From Planctomycetota bacterium (GTDB lineage: Bacteria > Planctomycetota > Phycisphaerae > UBA1845), in contig JAJRPG010000049.1 in the NCBI GenBank assembly GCA_024280855.1, forward strand, positions 1 through 33,194: a stretch of 33,194 nucleotides of DNA, written 5' to 3'. The position numbers were made by a program, and so were the translations under genes. This document shows, piece by piece, positions 10,639 to 27,467 of this stretch; positions within the stretch are counted from its first letter, which is position 1; every line of letters begins with the position of its first letter. The notes below the pieces were generated by a model. The model saw only the letters and a list, made by a program, of their open reading frames with translations. It was not told the DNA's origin and did no database searches.

Positions 10639-11766
10639 TTAGTGCTTTGGTAGGGCGTTTAGTAGTTGGTCGATTTCAGCTTCGGAATTGTAGTAGTGGG
10701 GGCTGGCGCGGAGCCGGCCTGAGCGGACGGCTATGATGATGTGATGCTCGGTTTCAAGGTGTCTTTGGATTTCGCTGTGGTCGTGCAGGTCAGAGGTGAA
10801 CGCGACGATACCGCTGGCTTCGCTTGGCTGTCGTGAGCTGACGACGCGATAACCTTTGTCGCGTAGCCCTGTCGTGAGCCTGTTGGTGAGCGAGATGATT
10901 CTGCTGGTGATGTTTTCCAGGCCGATTTCGCTGATAAGGTCGAGTGCGCCGCTGAGTGCGAAGATGCCTGCGATGTTGAGGCTTCCGGCTTCGTAGCGGC
11001 GGGCGGTGTCGGCGAATTCTAATTGTCTTTTGCCGAAGACGAAGGGGTTTTTCATGCTTAGCCAACCGACGGTGGTTGGTTGTAAGTGGCCAAGGATTTC
11101 TTTTCGTACATAAAAAATGCCAGAGCCTTCGGCAGCGCATAACCATTTGTGTCCGTCGGCGGCGAGGAAGTCGATTTTCATGGCTGCGACGTCTATAGGA
11201 AAAGCGCCGAGCGATTGAATGGCGTCTACGCAAAGGAAGACGCCCTTGCTTTGACAGTATTGGCCTAGGGTGGCGAGGTCGGTGCGGAAGCCGCTAGCAA
11301 ATTGTACAGATGAAATCGTGACGACGCGCGTGCGAGAGTTAATGGCTTCGATAATTTGTTCGAGTGGGATTCGGCCATCTTCTTCGAGGACGGTTCGGAC
11401 CTCGACGCCGCGAGCGCGTAGGGCTTGCCAGGCGTAGACGTTGGCCTCAAATTCGACGTTGCTGGTGACGATGTTGTCGCCGTTTTGCCAGCTAAGCCCG
11501 TTAGCTACGAAGCTGATTCCCTCGCTGGTATTTTTTGTGAGTGCTATTTCGTCGGGCTTGGCGTTAATGAGGTCTGCGATTTGGCCTCGGACCTGGTCTA
11601 CTTTTCGGAAAAATCCACCTTTGAGGTAGGCGTTGTTTTCGCTGTGTTCAAGGTATTTTCTGGCTGCGTCACCCGCTCGTTTGCTGAGGGGCGAGACGAG
11701 GGCGTGGTTAAGGAAGTTGAAGTTCCGAGTGATGGGGAATTCTTCTCTAAGTAGCTGCCAGTCCAT
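10639..11766 (-). CDS. Class-V aminotransferase (cysteine-desulfurase-like fold)
   Basis: 375 aa, PLP fold-type I, Aminotran_5 family. Visible are 'FNFLNHALVSPLS' near the N-terminus, 'KNTSEGISFVANGL' (about 78-91), cofactor Asp181 in DAIQSLG and the Schiff-base lysine Lys207 in DGHKWL. The 'EAGSLNIAGI' segment is also typical. The exact substrate cannot be read off. The family includes cysteine desulfurases/selenocysteine lyases, isopenicillin-N epimerase-like enzymes and kynureninase-like enzymes. I see no convincing desulfurase active-site Cys loop, so epimerase/lyase-like is as likely. It lies 148 bp upstream of the S46 gene. The upstream region carries a large perfect inverted repeat (11820-11869). 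Confidence 0.82.
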   Translation of the reverse strand: MDWQLLREEFPITRNFNFLNHALVSPLSKRAGDAARKYLEHSENNAYLKGGFFRKVDQVRGQIADLINAKPDEIALTKNTSEGISFVANGLSWQNGDNIVTSNVEFEANVYAWQALRARGVEVRTVLEEDGRIPLEQIIEAINSRTRVVTISSVQFASGFRTDLATLGQYCQSKGVFLCVDAIQSLGAFPIDVAAMKIDFLAADGHKWLCAAEGSGIFYVRKEILGHLQPTTVGWLSMKNPFVFGKRQLEFADTARRYEAGSLNIAGIFALSGALDLISEIGLENITSRIISLTNRLTTGLRDKGYRVVSSRQPSEASGIVAFTSDLHDHSEIQRHLETEHHIIIAVRSGRLRASPHYYNSEAEIDQLLNALPKH

Positions 11767-11819: not shown

Positions 11820-11869
11820 CATGGGTAAGTCCCGATTTCGATTTTCATCGAAATCGGGACTTACCCATG
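11820..11869. repeat. Perfect 23-bp inverted repeat with 4-base loop
   Basis: Arms 11820-11842 and 11847-11869 are exact reverse complements (core GGGTAAGTCCCGATTTCGAT), loop TTTC. It lies between two divergent genes. It is too long for an ordinary operator and has no T run, so it is a cruciform-forming repeat of unknown function, perhaps a mobile palindromic unit. Confidence 0.8.
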
Positions 11870-11903: not shown

Positions 11904-12144
11904 CCAACCGTTCCCTTATCTATTATACGAATGCTGGGGGTGGGATGTCTCCATAATTAGCAGGAATTTCTAATGATGGCTTCTTAATCATCTCCCACGT
12001 CCGCTAATGCCTGCTTATACCGATCGGCATGGTTTCCATATAAACTTTTACGCTTTTATGTGCTGGGCGCAGGCGGTGGTGGTTCGTATGATGCCGCGTT
12101 GCTATTGTTGTTGTTTTTTGTCGAATTTCGGATGTTATTCTCGC

Positions 12145-13815
12145 ATGGCTATTTCCTCGTTACGAAAATCGTTGCTACCCATACTTTTTGAAGACAGCGA
12201 ATTGTTGGCTGTTTGTAAGCCACCGGGAATTGATCTTGGTGATTCAACTAGCGCTAAGTCGGGCGGTCTGATCGAACTGCTGCAAAAACTTGATATGGGC
12301 AAAGTATTATTGCCGACCAACCGCCTTAGTCGTTATGAATCCGGGGTGGTGCTATTGGCGAAGAATCGAGCGATGGCTGAGCATCTGCGAAAAGGGATGC
12401 GGGCCGGGAGTGTTGATCTGGAATATGTGGTCGTGAGTATGGGACGCATGGCTACGGCGCGTATGGTGATTGATTCTAAGCATGGCGGTTCTCGCGGGAA
12501 ACGTGACGTGGGCAATCGTCGTCAAAACAAGACGAGTCGAGCAACAACATCGCGGGCAGCTGGTGACGGTAGAACGACGCTACAAAAAGTTAAGTCGTCT
12601 AAGAGAATGACTCTGTTGCGCTGTCGGACGACAGTGTCTACGACTCACGCACTGCGGGCGCAATTGCGGTCGGCGGGGCTAAGGGCTGCGGGTGATGCGG
12701 TGGGGCAGACGCATGTGCGGCGTGGTAAGAGCGAGCAGACGTGTATGCATCTGGTGAGTGTTTCCTTTCATCATCCGATCGTGAAAAAGAAAACTTCGAT
12801 TGGCTGTGGTGTACCGAATAGTTATGCGGACATTGTGGATGGCGGGTTTGGATTCGAGCGGATGTTAGAGACGGCGTTAGTACGACGCATCCCGCTACTC
12901 GAATCTTCCGAAACGAATGCGTATCGTCTTATTGGCCAACATGGCGAGGGGGTGAAGGGGGTTGAGGCGCAGCGGTATGATTCGTTGGTAATGATTCAAT
13001 CGGTGAACCCGTCGCCACAATTGGATGAGTCCTGGCATTCGATCGCGCGATGGTACAAACGTAAGCTGGGCGTCGAAACGATTTATCTCAAAAAGACTGG
13101 CAGGCGTATGGAAGAGGGTAATAAGACGCCTACGCCGTATGAGCAGACGCAGATTTTGGTAGGTAAAGCGCTGACGAAGCCGATTGTGATGCGAGAGTAC
13201 GATTTGCAGTATTTGATAAAGGCGGATGGCGGTCAATCGGTGGGTTTGTTTTTGGATCATCGTGAGAATAGGCATCGCATTCGACAATTGTCTCAAGGGA
13301 AAAAGGTACTGAATCTTTTTGCCTATACCTGCGGTTTTTCAGTGGCAGCGGCTAGGGGGGGGGCATCGGAGACGGTTAGCGTAGACCTGTCTACGAAGTC
13401 GCTGGACTGGGGGCGAGAAAATTTTGAGCTGAACTCGATCCCGACGGAAGGGCACGAATTTGTTACGTCGGATACGTTCGAGTATTTGAAGTGGGCTAAG
13501 CGGCAGGACTTATCTTTTGATGTCATTATTCTTGATCCGCCAACTTTTTCTCATGGTCGAAAGTCCAAGCAGGATTTTTCGGTGACGCGGGATTTACATG
13601 ATCTGGTTCGTCATGCGAGCGAAGTGTTATGCGACAAGGGCGTGATTTTTGTATCGAGCAACTATAGGAAATTTACGGCGCGAGAGATTAAGAATCATGT
13701 GAAGCGTGGGTGCGGTTCGCGGGGGATGCGGGTGATGAGTCAGCCTGGGCTTCCGGTAGATTTCGCGAAGGATGCGGACCATTGTAAGTCGATCATCGTG
13801 AAGCTCGATCCATAA
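12145..13815 (+). CDS. Degenerate RluA-like domain fused to an RlmK/RlmI-like rRNA methyltransferase
   Basis: About 556 aa. The N-terminal ~230 residues follow the RluA pseudouridine-synthase plan: 'LPILFEDSELLAVCKPPGID' then NRLSRYESG (59-67). The family motif is HRLDRxTSG, and the catalytic Asp is replaced by Ser here, so this half is probably an RNA-binding relic. A basic Thr/Arg/Lys-rich insert follows (~115-150). The C-terminal half is a class-I SAM methyltransferase: motif I-like 'NLFAYTCGFSVAAARGGA' near 390, and DPPTFSHG (464-471), the form seen in RlmK/RlmL. RlmK makes m7G2069 in 23S rRNA and RlmI makes m5C1962. Which base is modified here is unknown. Start: ATG 12145 removes a 46-residue unrelated Cys-rich extension from 12007; ribosome sites are weak for both. 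Confidence 0.75.
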   Translation: MAISSLRKSLLPILFEDSELLAVCKPPGIDLGDSTSAKSGGLIELLQKLDMGKVLLPTNRLSRYESGVVLLAKNRAMAEHLRKGMRAGSVDLEYVVVSMGRMATARMVIDSKHGGSRGKRDVGNRRQNKTSRATTSRAAGDGRTTLQKVKSSKRMTLLRCRTTVSTTHALRAQLRSAGLRAAGDAVGQTHVRRGKSEQTCMHLVSVSFHHPIVKKKTSIGCGVPNSYADIVDGGFGFERMLETALVRRIPLLESSETNAYRLIGQHGEGVKGVEAQRYDSLVMIQSVNPSPQLDESWHSIARWYKRKLGVETIYLKKTGRRMEEGNKTPTPYEQTQILVGKALTKPIVMREYDLQYLIKADGGQSVGLFLDHRENRHRIRQLSQGKKVLNLFAYTCGFSVAAARGGASETVSVDLSTKSLDWGRENFELNSIPTEGHEFVTSDTFEYLKWAKRQDLSFDVIILDPPTFSHGRKSKQDFSVTRDLHDLVRHASEVLCDKGVIFVSSNYRKFTAREIKNHVKRGCGSRGMRVMSQPGLPVDFAKDADHCKSIIVKLDP

Positions 13816-14283: not shown

Positions 14284-14919
14284 ATGGGTGAGAAAACTAC
14301 AAAAAAACGCCAGGAAATCAGGCTCGCGCCAGAGCCTTTAACCACTTGCCCGAAGTGTACCTACGCGCTCACCGGCTTGCCGAACGCCCACCGCTGCCCG
14401 GAGTGCGGGTTTGAATATGACGAGTATTCGTGGGTTTGGCCAATGCCAAATTCAAAATGGAGAAACACTCGCCTATTGATTGGGTGGGCTTCGATCATGC
14501 AGTTGCTGGTCTTCATCTTGGCTAGTTTTGAATACGACAGGTTTTTTACAATGGGTATGCTGAGCATTTTGATGTCTGTTGTACACTTGTGTGCCCTTGG
14601 CATGTGCATCATGTTGATTCGTCAGGTATTTCAACTACGACACCGACCTTTCGTAACCGCTACGCCAAAGGGCGTGACAGTACATGGAGTATCCTTGTGG
14701 AAGCAACACCGAACAATTCCCTGGCCCAACATTGTCGATGTAAAAGCAGGAGCTGGGTGGCGAAAAGGATTCAGCAGGATCATCGTCGCGAAAGGGGCTA
14801 ACGCTGGAGTGGAGCCTTTTTTTCGCAATCTAGAAGAATGGGAAGCGCTTAAAAATTCATTACTTGACGCCAAAGCTCATTACCTCAACCTGCCAAATCT
14901 CAACGAAAACCCCATGTGA
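14284..14919 (+). CDS. Zinc-ribbon, two-helix membrane protein with a C-terminal PH-like region
   Basis: 211 aa. Cys pairs CPKC (22-25) and CPEC (38-41), the first followed by 'YALTGLP', form an N-terminal zinc ribbon of the kind common in planctomycete membrane proteins. Two hydrophobic helices at about 62-82 and 88-114 follow. Then comes a ~80-residue soluble part ('GVTVHGVSLWKQHRTIPW') that reads like a bacterial PH domain. Function unknown. The ATG at 14284 has only a weak ribosome site. The thioredoxin-domain gene follows on the same strand, so the two may be co-transcribed. A related ribbon is found at the C-terminus of the protein at 31688-32305. Confidence 0.75.
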   Translation: MGEKTTKKRQEIRLAPEPLTTCPKCTYALTGLPNAHRCPECGFEYDEYSWVWPMPNSKWRNTRLLIGWASIMQLLVFILASFEYDRFFTMGMLSILMSVVHLCALGMCIMLIRQVFQLRHRPFVTATPKGVTVHGVSLWKQHRTIPWPNIVDVKAGAGWRKGFSRIIVAKGANAGVEPFFRNLEEWEALKNSLLDAKAHYLNLPNLNENPM

Positions 14920-17436: not shown

Positions 17437-18441
17437 ATGAAAATCGCTAAACCATTTGTGTTGGCAATCGTGCTGGCGATGTTTGCCTGCGGGCCTGTTC
17501 TCGCCGCGTCGCAGCAGGAAGAACCGGCTGATTTACCGCCCAAAAAGGCCGATATAAAACGTGAATGGTTCGGCGAGCCAGCTGCGAGTCGTGGCGATAC
17601 GACGTCGGCTGCGTTGTTGCAACAGCTTCAGGCGACCAGGCCTTTTAATGCCCTGATTTCATCTAAGCGTTCACGCGAATTGCACGCCAAAGGGATGCCG
17701 AAACCCTTGCTCCCCGAAGGCACGCGCCTTATTGAGCGTATTGGGTCTATCAGGCAGGAGGGCGATTGGTGGCTGTTTTTACCAACTGGCGATGACAGCC
17801 ATGACGACGCTGGCCATAAAGCTGGCCATGAAGAAGCGATGCGGATTTTGCCTAGCGAATGGCTGGAGGTCATGATACGGTCGAGCGTTGGGTCTGCTCA
17901 GCCGCTACTTTTTAGCTTGTCTGGCGAAGTCACCGAATTCGATGGCAGCAATTATGTACTCGCCCGTTCGGTGTCGCGAGTGGCTATACAGCAGGATATG
18001 CAGACGCCTACACCAGCGGTCGCTGAGGTGGCCACGGATGCTCCGATAGACGATGTCGTGGCGCGACTAAGAAAAATCAAGCTGGAGATTGAGCTACTCT
18101 CGCCGCCCGAGTTGACTGTTCCGTCCATGCCTAAGTTTGTTGCGCCTGCGCTGCCGTTTGTCCGTCCTGAGGGAACGCCGATGGTGCGTCGTCCGGGCCG
18201 CTTGATTGAAGAGTCGCCTTGGTGGATGTTTGTACTTGAGACGAGCAGTAAGAACCAGGGCCAGCTTCCCCTGAAGTTGTTGCCCAACCGCAATGTCGAG
18301 CTGATGATTGAAAACATTTCTCGTGGTGCTGAGGGGGTCGTGTTTTTAGTATCGGGTCAGCTAACGCTTTACAACGGCGAAAACTATCTGCATGTGCAAG
18401 CCGTCACCCGGCAGGTTGATATCGGCAATCTTCGCAAATGA
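17437..18441 (+). CDS. Exported protein with two copies of one domain, unknown function
   Basis: 334 aa. Signal peptide 'AIVLAMFACGPVLA' near residues 9-23. Residues ~92-185 and ~236-330 are similar: 'PEGTRLIERIGSIRQEGDWWLFLPTG...LLFSLSGEVTEFDGSNYVL' against 'PEGTPMVRRPGRLIEESPWWMFVLET...VVFLVSGQLTLYNGENYLHV'. The shared features are the PEGT, WW(L/M)F and 'SG(E/Q)(V/L)T.(F/Y)(D/N)G.NY' positions. The repeat ends in a beta-rich OB-like segment. I do not recognise the family; it is probably periplasmic. It is convergent with the next gene, with only 11 bases between stops. Confidence 0.75.
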   Translation: MKIAKPFVLAIVLAMFACGPVLAASQQEEPADLPPKKADIKREWFGEPAASRGDTTSAALLQQLQATRPFNALISSKRSRELHAKGMPKPLLPEGTRLIERIGSIRQEGDWWLFLPTGDDSHDDAGHKAGHEEAMRILPSEWLEVMIRSSVGSAQPLLFSLSGEVTEFDGSNYVLARSVSRVAIQQDMQTPTPAVAEVATDAPIDDVVARLRKIKLEIELLSPPELTVPSMPKFVAPALPFVRPEGTPMVRRPGRLIEESPWWMFVLETSSKNQGQLPLKLLPNRNVELMIENISRGAEGVVFLVSGQLTLYNGENYLHVQAVTRQVDIGNLRK

Positions 18442-20447: not shown

Positions 20448-23400
20448 ATGTTTTTGTCCAGGGCCCGTTTATTTACAATTAGTTGCGCGCTATTGGTTTT
20501 TGTGCCTAGCACATTTGCAGCTATTACTTTAGAGCTACGACCATCATCGCAAACTGTTACGGCGGGTACAGCCGCTAGTGTCGGGTTGTATGTGGTTTCG
20601 GATCTAGTCGGTGGCGAGCCCGTCGGCAAAATTAATGCGATCATACAATTCGATCCGAACAGGATGACATTGTTGGGACACGACCTGACAGGCGCGCCCG
20701 CATGGGGTGCTGCTGAGTTCCCGAGTGCGTCGTCGTTAAATCCTGATTGGACTAATGGCACAGCCTTATTTTCAGCTACGAGTGGCATATTACCGTTTCC
20801 TTGTGGCACGCTGGAAGTCGCTACGCCTGCGGGATTGTTGGTGACTACATTTCTGTTTGATATCGGTCCGGTTATTGGCTCAGCTACGGTGTTGTTGCCG
20901 GCGACTTTGAGTGGCGAAACCACCGAGGTTTATGATGCCTTAACCATTCTCACCTGTGGCGGTTTGCCTTATCCCATTACACTGGGCCCAACTGTTATAT
21001 TGAACGTCGTCACATGTGGCGGGGCCGTTGACTGCAATGATGGCACGGCCTGTACAGATGATTTATGCACGGCTGGTGTTTGCTCTAATCCCGATAATTA
21101 TGATCCGGTGACGCTGTGTTGCAACCCGGCTAATGGGGCGACTTTGACCATCGACGATGGCAACGACTGCACGCGTGACCTCTGTGATTCAACAACTGGC
21201 GCAGTATCAAATTTGAATGAGAATTTTGGCGTTGCGTGTGGTGATACATTGACTTCGAGTTGTACCCAGCCAGACACCTGCGACGGCATGGGCGTGTGCC
21301 AGAATAACGATCAAAACGACGGAACGCCCTGTGCAGAGCAGAATATGTGTATAGCTGACGGCTCCTGCCTTAGTGGCGTTTGCAGCAATCCTACAGCATT
21401 TTCTATGAACGGCTCCAGTTGTGATGACGGGAATTTTTGTACTGAGTTGGACGTTTGCACGAACGGCGTGTGTGACGGGAGCAATCCTTGCTCTGGCGTG
21501 TTACCGTTGTGTTTCGAAAACGTGGGCGGATTTATTTGCGGAAACTGTTCGAATCGGTCTCAGTGCCCGCCTGACATTGGTTGTGTTACATGGGATTGCC
21601 TGACTACTTTGTCTCATATTTGTGCCAAGACGCAAGACAACGTGCTTTGCGATGACAATCTTTTTTGCACTGGCGATGACACATGTCTAGGAGATGGCAC
21701 TTGTACGAATAACGGTTCTCCGTGCCTGACAGGTGCGATTTGCGATGAGGCAAATACTGCCTGTATTGAGTGTATCGTTGATACTGATTGTAAACGGTGC
21801 GATGTATCGGGTGATGCCTGCCTGGATACTATTGATTGTCCTGTTGGCGAGATGTGTCTAACACAAACGAATTTGTGCGACCCGATTGTTTGCAACGCTG
21901 GAATTTGCGAGCCGGGTGCTCCGGTGAATTGTCCTCAAACTGAACAGTGCCTTATCAATGAATGTAATGCGGCGACAGGGGCGTGTGAGCAACAATTGCC
22001 AGGCTCAGTTGCTTGTACTGCTGGAACTTGCCCTGTTGGCTTTAGCTGTGACACTGTGCAGGACTTCGTATGTTTTCGTTCCGCTGGTTGCACTGATGCC
22101 GATGGTTGCACACTTGACGACATGTGCGTCAATGGTGCTTGTGTGGGCACGCCTCGACTGTTTGATCAAAACGTCGATATGCAATTAGTTCCGGTATATC
22201 CTGCTGGGCGAAACTACTACATGGTAGGCGAAACTGCGGAAGTGCAGTTAAGGCTAAAACTCAACAATGTAAGTACAATTTCGCGATCAATCGGTACAGT
22301 GGGAGCGAGTTTATCGTGGGATCCGCTAGTCTTAGGCGGCGCGATTGCGCCCACAATCGTTGATCCATGTACAGGAACTATTGATCCTTTACTGGACTGT
22401 CCTTTGGGGCAATATGATTGGTCGGGCAGCGTATTCTCGGGCGGTGTTTGTGCTGATGGTGCTGGACTAAGTGGTAACTTAATCGATGGTGATGCGATGT
22501 ATTGCGCCGCCGCCGCACTTGGAGCGCCGCAAGCCACTGTGACTACGACTCAGGATTTATGGGTTACTTCGTTCATGTTGCCAACCGTTAGGGCGTCTTC
22601 TACAACAGGATCTCGATTTTCAATGGTTCCTTGCGTAAGCGATCTTCTCGGTGGCAGTGCTTCAAATAGTCGGGTGTTAGCCGGCGCTGACCGTACAGGA
22701 AATTTGCTGCTGGCAAATGTACGCATTCAATGCACGGTCAATGCACAGTGTGATGATGGTGATCCTTGTACATTGGATTCTTGCAACCAGGCGACCAGTT
22801 TTTGCCAGTTTTTAGGTGATGCAACTTTAGCTGGTATTGCCTGCGGCGATGGGAGTTCAACTGATTGCGATAACCCAGACACCTGTGATGCCATGGGTAT
22901 ATGCCAGCTAAATAATGAAGCTAACGGTTTTGCTTGCACCGATGACGGAATTGATTGTACTAACGATGTATGCGGCAGCGCAGTTTGTACGCACCCCAAC
23001 AAGGTTGTTGGGTCTTCATGCGGTGATCCGACAGCCATTGAATGTAATGCAGCTGATTCGTGCGATGGCATCGGAAATTGTTTGGCTAACTTAACCACTG
23101 ACGGAACGGCTTGTTCATCAGATGGTAATAATTGTACGGATGATGTGTGCCAGTTCGGATTGTGTTTAAACAACAATAAGCCTAATGGAACAAACTGTGT
23201 CGATTCGCTTTTCTGTACTGATTTTACGACTTGCGACGCAGGGGTTTGCCAAGGAGGCCAAGTGACCGACTGCGGAGATGGGGTTGCCTGTACAATCGAC
23301 ACTTGCGACGAAAACACCAATTCGTGCGTCAATACGCCTGATGACGGTAGCTGTAGCAATGGCGCATTCTGCGACGGTGACGAAGTATGCAATGTGACCA

Positions 23401-24518
23401 ATGGTTGCCAGGCTGGTCCCGCTCGAAACTGCGACGACGGCGTGCCATGTACGGCTGACTCATGCAATGCAGGCCTGAATCAGTGCGATAATATTGCGGA
23501 CGACATGTTGTGTGATAACGGCCTGTTCTGCGATGGGGTGGAAACCTGTGATGTAAATAATGGTTGCCAATCTGGCAGTGCCGTTAATTGTACTGACGAT
23601 GGTGTAGCTTGCACTGTTAATGACTTCTGCGATGAAATGTTGGATGCGTGTTCAGGTATTGCGAATGATACCTTGTGTGCAATGGATGAGATTTGCGATC
23701 TAACTCTGGGCTGCGTGCCCGCAGTGACTTGCAACACGCCGATTGTTACGGCAGTTGGTTCACGGTTTTTCTCAGTGGAGCCTTTACCTGCCGACAGTAA
23801 TGTGTCAACACGCTTCTTCATTACTTCTCCGACTTGGCCTTGTCTGGCTAAATTCGTTGGCGTGCCAGTTGGTGTAGATTTGGACGCCAATGGTACGATA
23901 GACGGTATGGCTGCGACGTTGGTGGATGTCGTTAATGATGCTGGAGTCTTGACGCCTGCTGAATGGTCTGGCTTTGCTTGTAGTAACCTTTCGCCAACTT
24001 GTATGGTTGATGGTGATTGCGGCGTTGGCGGTAGCTGTGATCCTATCATGCGGTGTAGTGAATCTTTGCAGCCGTGTGCGATTACGCCTGATTGTCCTAT
24101 GGGGGGAGAAACATGCGTGCCGGGTAAGCTATACGTTGGTGGCCCGGACATCACACCTAGTGATCGCAATCAACCTCCAACGCAGTACCGTATTCAGGCG
24201 GATTGCGGTGGCGGCCAGCCTCCGATTCAAACAGTTCAGATGCACTTGTTCGGCGATACTGACCGGAGTGGTATTATCAATGCTACTGATATTACGCTAG
24301 CAGTCCAAGGGTTTCAGTTGAATTATCACCTTCCTGTCGGCGAGTTCAACGGTTCCTTAACAGTCTCGGTTGACCACCGGGGCACAGCTACCGTGTGTAG
24401 TATTATCGTGCCGTTGTCTATAAACGTAGCTGACATAACTGCCACTGTTAAGTCTTTTCAGTTAGCTACTTATGCCTCAGAAGCCGTTGCTGGTAATTGT
24501 CCTCTGCCATGCCCGTAG
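20448..24518 (+). CDS. Giant Cys-rich secreted protein with cohesin-like domains and a C-terminal dockerin-like domain
   Basis: 1356 aa. Signal peptide ~1-24 (LLVFVPSTFA). Residues ~25-185 read as a cohesin-like beta-sandwich ('ITLELRPSSQTVTAGTAAS', 'IIQFDPNRMTLLG'). Residues ~190-565 are Cys-rich units of the form C-DDG-xx-CTxDxC-xxGxC, as in myxobacterial and planctomycete surface proteins. A second cohesin-like domain lies at ~570-755, a second Cys-rich block at ~762-1095 and another beta domain at ~1100-1260. Residues ~1267-1345 carry two helices with Ca-loop-like 'DTDRSGIINATDITLAVQGFQ'-style sequence (dockerin type I). Base usage matches its neighbours. The ATG has GGGAG upstream (TTGAGGGAGAAGCAAT). 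Having cohesin-like and dockerin-like modules in one chain suggests self-assembly or scaffolding at the cell surface; this is inference. Confidence 0.82.
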   Translation: MFLSRARLFTISCALLVFVPSTFAAITLELRPSSQTVTAGTAASVGLYVVSDLVGGEPVGKINAIIQFDPNRMTLLGHDLTGAPAWGAAEFPSASSLNPDWTNGTALFSATSGILPFPCGTLEVATPAGLLVTTFLFDIGPVIGSATVLLPATLSGETTEVYDALTILTCGGLPYPITLGPTVILNVVTCGGAVDCNDGTACTDDLCTAGVCSNPDNYDPVTLCCNPANGATLTIDDGNDCTRDLCDSTTGAVSNLNENFGVACGDTLTSSCTQPDTCDGMGVCQNNDQNDGTPCAEQNMCIADGSCLSGVCSNPTAFSMNGSSCDDGNFCTELDVCTNGVCDGSNPCSGVLPLCFENVGGFICGNCSNRSQCPPDIGCVTWDCLTTLSHICAKTQDNVLCDDNLFCTGDDTCLGDGTCTNNGSPCLTGAICDEANTACIECIVDTDCKRCDVSGDACLDTIDCPVGEMCLTQTNLCDPIVCNAGICEPGAPVNCPQTEQCLINECNAATGACEQQLPGSVACTAGTCPVGFSCDTVQDFVCFRSAGCTDADGCTLDDMCVNGACVGTPRLFDQNVDMQLVPVYPAGRNYYMVGETAEVQLRLKLNNVSTISRSIGTVGASLSWDPLVLGGAIAPTIVDPCTGTIDPLLDCPLGQYDWSGSVFSGGVCADGAGLSGNLIDGDAMYCAAAALGAPQATVTTTQDLWVTSFMLPTVRASSTTGSRFSMVPCVSDLLGGSASNSRVLAGADRTGNLLLANVRIQCTVNAQCDDGDPCTLDSCNQATSFCQFLGDATLAGIACGDGSSTDCDNPDTCDAMGICQLNNEANGFACTDDGIDCTNDVCGSAVCTHPNKVVGSSCGDPTAIECNAADSCDGIGNCLANLTTDGTACSSDGNNCTDDVCQFGLCLNNNKPNGTNCVDSLFCTDFTTCDAGVCQGGQVTDCGDGVACTIDTCDENTNSCVNTPDDGSCSNGAFCDGDEVCNVTNGCQAGPARNCDDGVPCTADSCNAGLNQCDNIADDMLCDNGLFCDGVETCDVNNGCQSGSAVNCTDDGVACTVNDFCDEMLDACSGIANDTLCAMDEICDLTLGCVPAVTCNTPIVTAVGSRFFSVEPLPADSNVSTRFFITSPTWPCLAKFVGVPVGVDLDANGTIDGMAATLVDVVNDAGVLTPAEWSGFACSNLSPTCMVDGDCGVGGSCDPIMRCSESLQPCAITPDCPMGGETCVPGKLYVGGPDITPSDRNQPPTQYRIQADCGGGQPPIQTVQMHLFGDTDRSGIINATDITLAVQGFQLNYHLPVGEFNGSLTVSVDHRGTATVCSIIVPLSINVADITATVKSFQLATYASEAVAGNCPLPCP

Positions 24519-25547: not shown

Positions 25548-25763
25548 ATCGGAACTCCGTTAAGTGTGTTGGCTTTATACCAGCTACCCAAAGACCTGTC
25601 TTTTCACATCTCCAAGGTATGGGCTTAGTTTTTATCGCCCGTTGGGCTGGCATGGTATACCAGATGCAAGAGATCGCATAGGCCGGACTATGTCTGCGTT
25701 GGCGATGCGATTGATGTGCAAGATGGTTCTTCAGCATCTTCCGCGCCCAGTGAGGTATTCACG

Positions 25764-27467
25764 ATGCCCAAGCGACGCATCAGAGCAACGATAGAAGACT
25801 TACATAGAATTCGTTTCGGCGGTCGGAATGGCGATATTGCAGAGCAGGCCCAGATACTCGCCCAGCTTACCCATGAAGCCGTGAGTCAGCCGACTGACGT
25901 TCTCGCGTGCCACGCTATAGCGATGGCTATCCATGCCTTTCCTTGTCGCCGAAAAAATGACCGGTTAGCCACTGACATATTAAGCCTATTGGGTCAGCAA
26001 ATATCACAAATGAAGGACCGAAAGAGAGGCCTTTTTCAGGATACCGGACTGCTTGGCACGAAAGTGGTCCACGCTTTTTCATATGAAATAGCTCGTTGGC
26101 TGGTAGATAAATTCGGAGAATCCGTTGACATTTCCTGGCCCGATTACGAAACACCTGAGCAGCTTGACCCTGTGTTAGCGCATCTACTCTTGCGGTCGGA
26201 GCTATCCGCTTTTGAAGAGGGTACAGTCGATACGAAAACTTGGCTGCGGTTAGCCAAAGGTGATTCGACGAAGACCGACTTGGCTTGGCTACTCGACGAG
26301 ATGGCCTGTTCTGACATCCCTGCGAGCGTGCTTAACGAAGCCTATACTACGGCGGAAGTTCCGTTAGTCTGGCGTCTTGACCATGCACTAGCCAGTAAAT
26401 CCGACAATCGCGTTGCCATGAAAAGCGTGGCCTATCGTGGAGAAGGGCTGAGGGTATTTCACGGCTGCGCTGCTCAAGAAATTACCAAACCGCTACGTGG
26501 CATTCGGAAACTTTCACGAATTCGTGCCCAGGAAGTTATCGATGTCGCGAGAGTCTCTCTTGCAAGTCGGCAGCGAGAAGTGTACGCGATAAGCCAGGCT
26601 AATGTCGATGAGGTTTATCTGGCGCCGCTCGGGAAAAATGTACACGTCGCTATCATCGGAGTTGTGCCAGCCGCTCGTCTTAGTTTAGAAGCCAACTATG
26701 GTTATCTACTTTTATCTAATGGTGTGCCGATTGGCTATGGCGGGGTGAGTCCGCTTTTTCGCCAGGCCAATACGGGCATTAACATTTTCGATGAATTTCG
26801 CGGAGCAGAATCAGCGACACTATGGGTTCAGGCGTTACGCGCCTTTCGCCAACTCTTTCAATGTCATCGTTTTATCGTGAATCCTTACCAATTCGGGAAA
26901 GGAAACTCCGAGGCTGTCGGTAGTGGGGCGTTTTGGTTTTATTACAAGCTGGGATTTAGGCCAATTGATGCAGACATTCGGGCATTAGCCGCGCGCGAGA
27001 AAAAGCGCTGCAAAAAAAATTCAGGACATCGCACGGATCGAAAAACGCTTCGACAATTGGCCCAAAGTGATCTTGAACTGCGATTACCCGGTAGCAGCCA
27101 AGCCGAAAGATTTGAAGAGCGTTGGCTGGAAACGCTGTCTCTTGGCTCGACACAGCTCTTGGCTTCTCAATCATGCTCGTCCAGGCGATTGGCGATGCGC
27201 CGCGTCGTTCGGGCCTTGTGTCGAATACTGAAAATTAATAGCCGTCACACATGGCCATCAAACGAACGCGAATCTTTTGAGTTATTAGCCCCCGTTATTG
27301 GCTTGGTTCAAACAGAGATCGAAAATTGGTCACGACGAGAAAAAAGTGACTTGGTAAAACTGATGCGGGCTAAGGGCGCTCGCGGCGAGCTGGACTTCGC
27401 ACGCTGCCTGGCTAATCATGATCGACTGCGCCAATCGTTAGCTAGGTATTGTCGCCGAGCGGAATAG
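25764..27467 (+). CDS. 567-aa protein with a GNAT-like region, unknown function
   Basis: No signal peptide or membrane helices. Residues 1-290 are mostly helical with no known motif. Residues ~293-400 look like a GNAT core: a strand 'YGYLLLSNGVPIGYGGVSPLF', then 'INIFDEFRGAESA' and 'NPYQFGKGNSEAVGSGAFWF' leading into 'YYKLGFRP', the usual last GNAT motif. The C-terminal ~150 residues are basic and helical (KKRCKKNSGHRTDRKT). ATG 25764 has GAGG eight bases upstream; an upstream in-frame start at 25716 has none. I do not recognise the family. The YKLGFRP end and the neighbouring strand suggest an acyltransferase fold, but no acetyl-CoA loop (Q/RxxGxG/A) is obvious, so it may be non-catalytic. 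Convergent with metK. Confidence 0.7.
   Translation: MPKRRIRATIEDLHRIRFGGRNGDIAEQAQILAQLTHEAVSQPTDVLACHAIAMAIHAFPCRRKNDRLATDILSLLGQQISQMKDRKRGLFQDTGLLGTKVVHAFSYEIARWLVDKFGESVDISWPDYETPEQLDPVLAHLLLRSELSAFEEGTVDTKTWLRLAKGDSTKTDLAWLLDEMACSDIPASVLNEAYTTAEVPLVWRLDHALASKSDNRVAMKSVAYRGEGLRVFHGCAAQEITKPLRGIRKLSRIRAQEVIDVARVSLASRQREVYAISQANVDEVYLAPLGKNVHVAIIGVVPAARLSLEANYGYLLLSNGVPIGYGGVSPLFRQANTGINIFDEFRGAESATLWVQALRAFRQLFQCHRFIVNPYQFGKGNSEAVGSGAFWFYYKLGFRPIDADIRALAAREKKRCKKNSGHRTDRKTLRQLAQSDLELRLPGSSQAERFEERWLETLSLGSTQLLASQSCSSRRLAMRRVVRALCRILKINSRHTWPSNERESFELLAPVIGLVQTEIENWSRREKSDLVKLMRAKGARGELDFARCLANHDRLRQSLARYCRRAE

Follow-up and report, generated by a model that had tools for sequence, protein, structure and literature searches.

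A fusion gene at 12145..13815 (forward strand, 556 amino acids) of the window, i.e. the whole 33,194-nucleotide stretch of planctomycetotal DNA analysed here, encodes an RluA-type pseudouridine synthase-like (PUS-like) domain with Ser at the position of the catalytic Asp, followed by a class I rRNA-type methyltransferase, and its product is probably a single-chain enzyme that methylates rRNA. The Asp is missing in 41 of the 44 fused proteins covering the site in the taxonomic family of the window's bacterium (hereafter f1). The loss of the catalytic residue from a domain that is yet preserved by selection suggests that a former RNA-editing domain now holds RNA instead of editing it, and it is considered fairly probable that the retired module serves an m7G-type methyltransferase as a platform for docking on rRNA. 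As a rule, RNA-modifying enzymes are assigned the function that their family's chemistry implies; the present domain passes the Pfam cut-off for pseudouridine synthases, yet pseudouridine synthesis is not expected of it, which is a warning for annotation of this kind.

Gene structure, domain organisation and predicted fold

The gene starts with Met at 12145 and ends with the stop codon at 13813-13815 without any internal stop; its reading frame opens at 12007, and the nearest homologues start near 12145. The PUS-like domain spans residues about 11-235 (12175..12849), as judged by Pfam and by alignment of the structural model to RluC (1v9k), and contains the PseudoU_synth_2 match at 12202-12669 (E 1e-10, 42.6 bits against a cut-off of 26.8). 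Alignment places Asp30 (codon 12232..12234) in the motif I loop KPPGIDLG and motif II, NRLSRYESG, at residues 59-67 (12319..12345), in which Ser62 (AGT, 12328-12330) occupies the position of the catalytic Asp of HRLDxxTSG. The methyltransferase module (residues about 237-556, 12853..13812), RlmK/RlmQ-like according to Pfam, NCBIfam and the structural alignment, matches Methyltrans_SAM (E 2e-33) and carries motif IV DPPTF at 13534..13548 and motif VI VSSN at 13651..13662, with Asn in the column that holds the Cys (SCS) of the RlmI-like paralogues. It has no N-terminal PUA domain, and Pfam finds no PUA match in the fusion protein. All these features lie on the forward strand. Thus, the open frame, the Pfam matches and the alignment confirm the first-pass annotation, in which a PUS-like domain without its catalytic Asp was described as fused to an rRNA methyltransferase; its reading of NRLSRYESG, with Ser for the essential Asp, and of an intact DPPTFS, which begins at 13534, is borne out as well.

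The genome assembly to which the window belongs (4.56 Mb, 112 contigs, 96% complete) contains three PF00849 proteins at E 0.001, the fusion protein among them. The other two are an RluD-like protein with the motif HRLDKNTTG (L001) and a fusion of an RluA domain with a TrhO/sulfurtransferase part, whose motif is HRLDANTSG (L002). The fusion protein is the only PF10672 methyltransferase of the genome.

An AlphaFold2 model of the fusion protein, built from three sequences and of moderate confidence (mean pLDDT 66.9), was compared with known structures by VIA-align on Foldseek matches. The PUS-like part of the model (residues 11-235) superimposes on RluC 1v9k with Z 19.0 (rmsd 3.7, 194 residues aligned), and similar residue ranges align to RluD (Z 18.7) and RluA (Z 18.6). 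Residues 266-554 align to 2b78 with Z 26.2 (rmsd 5.1, 264 residues aligned), and the methyltransferase part also aligns to 3vse (Z 23.9), RlmK in RlmKL (3v97, 22.8) and RlmI (3c0k, 22.7). The window's protein shares the fold, KPxG, the base-flipping Arg, the Tyr and THxLR with RluC, RluD and RluA (PF00849, TIGR00005), and differs from these enzymes in having Ser for the catalytic Asp and a fused methyltransferase; its TIGR00005 score of 70.5 bits stays below the cut-off of 192.7. RlmI-type relatives possess an N-terminal RNA-binding PUA domain. Alignments of the window's protein begin at residue 84 of 2b78, 69 of 3vse and 75 of RlmI 3c0k; from the first two starts, the PUS-like domain replaces the N-terminal part of these proteins and appears to stand in the place of the PUA domain.

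Loss of the catalytic aspartate and the altered motif II in family f1

Homologues were searched in 100 genomes (the window's own and 99 relatives), and matches at E 1e-20 or better were found in 45 of the 50 f1 relatives. The resulting f1 set has 46 proteins including that of the window, of which 43 could be aligned over motif II; two others (L006 and L041) are cut by a contig end before the motif, and one protein is divided between two contigs (L175/L029), its N-terminal piece spanning motif II. The duplicates L003, L030 and L034 were excluded from the alignments. In the 43 aligned proteins the catalytic column contains S in 19, E in 11, N in 4, G in 3, D in 3, A in 2 and P in 1, and the forty-fourth, L175, reads NRISGRESG, again with Ser. 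The proteins covering the site span 27 genera (26 and that of L175), those of the exceptions included. The three Asp-containing motifs are ERLDRFASG, ERVDRFASG and MGLDAHVSG; all three proteins are devoid of the motif II His and the motif III HQ, and the last one lacks the Arg as well. By parsimony, the Asp state changes three times on the methyltransferase tree. A metagenome-assembled genome (MAG) of the same genus, 71% identical over the whole protein, has the identical NRLSRYESG, so that a sequencing error at Ser62 is unlikely. Alignment of homologues therefore shows the clade-wide loss that the first-pass annotation had left to be examined, and the close relative with an intact HRLD motif that would have spoken against it was not among the f1 proteins; intact motifs occur only in distant relatives (about 26-29% identity).

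Pseudouridine synthases are known to require the Asp at its own place. As this residue is gone, the PUS-like domain should be incapable of isomerising uridine, a prediction made from the sequence. In E. coli, RluC D144A is reported to yield zero pseudouridine, i.e. the Asp is essential (PMC11194073). The remaining active-site residues vary: the base-flipping Arg is conserved in 28 of the 43 f1 proteins and changed in 15, the active-site Tyr is conserved in 26 and changed in 17, and motif III is also altered in a large part of f1. The window's protein retains Arg60, Tyr94 and the motif III THxLR.

In motif II of the window's protein, Glu65 stands in place of Thr and Arg60 corresponds by position to the base-flipping Arg. 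A signature set was defined by two residues, Arg at motif position two and an acid at position seven; 24 of the 40 Asp-less proteins belong to it, that of the window among them. Because of this choice, Arg60 and the residue-65 acid do not constitute independent evidence. The motif of the set is (N/S/H)-R-L-(S/A/G/N)-R-x-(E/D)-S-G; L61, R63, S66 and G67 are each present in all 24, position 65 is occupied by Glu in 23 proteins and by Asp in one, and Asp30 of the KPxG loop is found in 23 of 24. Among the 40 Asp-less proteins, none has an acid at residue 65 without the Arg. D30 occurs in 29 of the 40, E65 in 23 and neither in 10, and the six aligned fusions with an intact motif have T at residue 65 and no D at residue 30. 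Within the alignment, the form NRL(S/A/G/N)RxESG, with Arg60 kept and with a new Glu65 and Asp30, is the most surprising feature of these proteins. According to one report on RluA and RluB, flipping of the target base is carried out by the Arg that precedes the Asp by two positions, R108A having 0.6% activity, and the active-site Tyr assists, Y140F having about 3% (PMC3919597). The pocket may have been rebuilt, such that Arg60 flips and clamps a specific, unmodified rRNA base as a 'ruler' for the methyltransferase, or such that the new acids provide a new chemistry; this is regarded as an unlikely interpretation of the conserved motif. If true, it would represent a protein-encoded 'ruler' for the target guanine, built from a retired RNA-modifying enzyme.

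Selection on the two parts of the protein was compared in 11 close pairs (10 Asp-less and one Asp-keeping), several of them near silent-site saturation. dN/dS values range from 0.069 to 0.187 in the PUS part and from 0.055 to 0.241 in the methyltransferase part, i.e. purifying selection is similar in both. None of the 43 aligned f1 frames has an internal stop (L016 and L050 run off the contig end). The low dN/dS values and the uninterrupted frames together make a functionless decay of the domain unlikely. The earlier suggestion of a dead domain repurposed to present rRNA to the methyltransferase is supported to the extent that the family-wide loss of the Asp and the purifying selection are both as expected from it; the presentation of rRNA would be a further step.

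Methyltransferase type and phyletic distribution of the fusions

The METHYLTRANSFERASE part of the fusion protein resembles RlmK and RlmQ (m7G) in its motifs. RlmK (m7G2069), the C-terminal half of E. coli RlmKL, has DPPTFS and a motif VI SNN without Cys, comparable to the SSN of the window's protein (DPPTFSNSKR and SNNKRGF in RlmK, DPPTFSHGRK and SSNYRKF here); its partner in E. coli is RlmL and not a PUS. The closest solved structures, SMU.776 (2b78/3ldf) and 3vse (sequence E 2.7e-43 and 2e-38), which are presumed RlmQ orthologues, have DPPSF and a motif VI STN/CTN. RlmQ is B. subtilis YwbD and forms m7G2574, as cited in PMC12672651. RlmI (m5C1962) has the class I methyltransferase fold in common with the window's protein, which differs from it in the Asn in the Cys column, the absence of the PUA domain and the G at position 1962 of its own genome. 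In the alignment, the RlmI-Cys column contains Asn in 74 of 77 rows and Ser in 3, and Cys in both RlmI-like paralogues (L109 and L110); 10 of the 77 rows have a Cys next to this column, comparable to LCTN of 3vse. Of the 42 f1 sequences in the tree set, 34 have DPPTF or DPPSF as motif IV and the other 8 have DAPTF or DAPSF. The best NCBIfam score of the window's protein is 176.4 bits with the RlmKL model, which has 704 positions and spans RlmL and RlmK together; as such scores are far below the equivalog cut-offs (466 for this model), the m7G assignment is one by motif and not by family membership. The NCBIfam model for m5C at C2499 scores 153 bits against a cut-off of 650 and is disfavoured, the Cys being absent. 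A defence-related reading was set aside, since the PADLOC match to Mad2 is confined to the methyltransferase part and was taken to reflect the shared methyltransferase fold. A second, weaker methyltransferase match was observed in some f1 genomes, G014 and G046 among them.

The 23S rRNA was read at the candidate sites, using E. coli numbering in which the rrlA copy is one base longer and positions above 1900 are shifted by one. G2069 and G2574 are present in all 11 f1 genomes read, the window's own included, which says little because both bases are widely conserved. Position 1962, the C that RlmI methylates (m5C) in E. coli, is G in 11 of 11 f1 and 4 of 4 other-order genomes read, and C in both genomes covered of a distant Planctomycetota family (f33). 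From the motifs and the rRNA bases, m7G at 2069 or 2574 is the leading candidate product. The first-pass annotation had pointed to rRNA around the RlmK and RlmI sites; the RlmK side of this proposal agrees with the RlmK/RlmQ-like methyltransferase, while the RlmI site is unlikely because the m5C cysteine is missing. Loss of the target base was also considered as a cause of the Asp loss and rejected: U is retained at 746, 2504 and 2580 in all sequences covering these positions. Position 955 was rejected too: the 6 covered f1 genomes, with their dead domains, and the 2 covered f33 genomes, with an intact PUS, all have G there, so that it does not separate dead from intact domains.

Among the matches listed for a phylum-wide sample of 392 genomes, with three candidates scored per genome, at least seven f33 fusions were identified (five full-length matches, and L172 and L173 through longer stretches around partial matches). 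HRLDK(G/E)TSG is intact in all seven f33 proteins read. A further fusion, with an intact HRLDKGTSG, occurs in a Verrucomicrobiia MAG (L035); in its phylum, 39 of 288 genomes yielded a match at E 1e-50, and L035 alone extends into the PUS part. Its PUS part clusters with f33 (support 99), so that a transfer or misbinning is possible. The f33 and L035 fusions have the same domain order as the window's protein, with the methyltransferase directly after the PUS, and unlike it they keep the HRLDK(G/E)TSG motif and are, hence, potentially bifunctional. Outside f1, the search covered 49 genomes of the order, 40 of which have a match at E 1e-20 or better, and all sister-family matches listed begin at residue 207 or later, i.e. 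they cover the methyltransferase part only.

In the methyltransferase tree, 20 of 99 rows were left out (16 near-alike stand-alone proteins and four f1 fragments cut by contig ends, L006, L029, L041 and L050). The 21 sampled stand-alone methyltransferases form one group (96) inside a 99-supported group that includes f1. Family f1 itself requires two changes in one methyltransferase tree, and in the better one it is a single group with weak support (65). Neither a single clade of all fused PUS domains (AU p 0.588) nor one of the fused and the order's methyltransferases (AU p 0.787) is rejected. The canonical RluA profile outscores the profile of the intact fusions, built from six rows, in 34 of 34 f1 PUS sequences, which argues mildly that f1 and the intact fusions arose separately. 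The present distribution may reflect either a fused ancestor whose domain was lost in the sister families or a gain of the domain in f1. An origin of the fusion from adjacent genes was dropped: 18 of the 21 fetched stand-alone loci (L091-L108), which include about 2-3 kb upstream, were queried with the PUS domain in its dead and its intact form (E 1e-8) and with three PUS profiles (E 1e-3), and none has a PUS gene next to the methyltransferase; L053-L055 have shorter flanks and stand outside this count.

Two stand-alone degenerate RluA-like proteins were observed in a sister family, one at 1315-2193 of L141 (G065) with YSVEPDVSG (Asp replaced by Glu, Arg lost) and one in L174 (G068) with YHLDAALSG (Arg lost, Asp kept). 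They may possibly represent a second dead RluA lineage; ORFs near L141 resemble MreC and Sir2 by eye.

Proposed role, alternative explanations and gene neighbourhood

In the docking proposal, the retired RluA-family domain, positioned like the PUA domain of RlmI-type relatives, would dock on a stem-loop or a flipped base of 23S rRNA, and would thereby recruit and orient the rRNA so as to present a nearby guanine to the RlmK/RlmQ-like methyltransferase. That an RluC-like module should sit close to an m7G site makes spatial sense, since RluC acts at 2504 and 2580 in E. coli and RlmK and RlmL also work in domain V (PMC11194073). Against docking, a single mode of RNA contact common to f1 appears doubtful from the alignment, because the Arg, the Tyr or motif III is changed in many members, and the domain is not generally needed, because the sister-family methyltransferase does without it. 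A simple benefit of a dead PUS is also disfavoured by E. coli, where the same report describes dead RluC(D144A) as giving no help in assembly and worsening growth of the deletion strain (PMC11194073). In the titles, abstract openings and best matches of the literature on inactive or fused pseudouridine synthases, no such fusion and no dead-RluA guide for a methyltransferase is mentioned.

These E. coli data bear as well on the rather unlikely alternative of an assembly factor, in which the whole protein would assist the folding of 23S rRNA in the region of the peptidyl transferase centre, the dead PUS acting as an RNA chaperone and methylation being secondary. The selection on the PUS domain accords with it, as does the reported boost that E. 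coli RlmKL and RlmB give to 50S assembly even apart from their modification activity (PMC11194073); but the failure of RluC(D144A) to rescue assembly counts against it, and motif IV, which stays D(P/A)P(T/S)F in 42 of 42 f1 rows, indicates that methyltransferase catalysis also seems to be selected. A re-tooled pocket, in which Arg60, Glu65 and Asp30 would act on a flipped base or hold it stably, possibly by means of an acid that has moved or through another chemistry, is given still less credence. It draws on the constancy of the signature set around an Asp column of S, A, G or N and on T65 without D30 in the intact fusions; the need for the Asp at its own place, known for the family and seen in RluC D144A (PMC11194073), and the 10 Asp-less proteins with neither acid weigh against it, and the conserved positions may instead serve RNA contact or stability.

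The remaining two explanations deny the domain a new role. That it is a passenger, a remnant decaying after an ancestral bifunctional enzyme was no longer needed for pseudouridine, could account for the differing Asp substitutions among sublineages and for the sister-family protein without the domain, but is very improbable in view of the PUS-part dN/dS of 0.07-0.19, the 43 stop-free members and the new motif fixed in 24 of them. The least credible explanation is that it is still a pseudouridine synthase despite Ser62; the fold, Arg60, Tyr94 and THxLR kept in the window's protein would suit an active enzyme, but Ser occupies the catalytic position, where N, G, A, E and P also occur among relatives.

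The proteins form a natural series of intact fusions (f33), Asp-less fusions (27 f1 genera, three exceptions in 44) and methyltransferases alone (sister families). With this series one can examine whether rRNA binding rather than chemistry is what preserves a modification enzyme, an issue that PMC11194073 raises for E. coli RlmKL and RlmB.

Elsewhere in the window, three long ORFs on the forward strand (14284-14919, 17437-18441 and 25716-27467) have no Pfam match at E 1e-5. The ORF at 20448-24518 (forward strand) encodes a cysteine-rich, secreted-looking protein of 1356 residues with CDDGxxCT-type repeats recognised by eye, for which no Pfam family scores above its cut-off. A class V aminotransferase gene (10639-11766, reverse strand) is divergent from the fusion gene, and between the two lies an inverted repeat (11824-11865) with exact 19-base arms (GGTAAGTCCCGATTTCGAT), possibly a terminator or an operator. 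An arm matches only two other places in the same genome, with 2 mismatches, so the repeat does not belong to a large family. A search of four loci for the aminotransferase gave no match at L015 and showed that the gene pair is conserved in the congener L034 (93% identity) and in L009 and L020 (71%).
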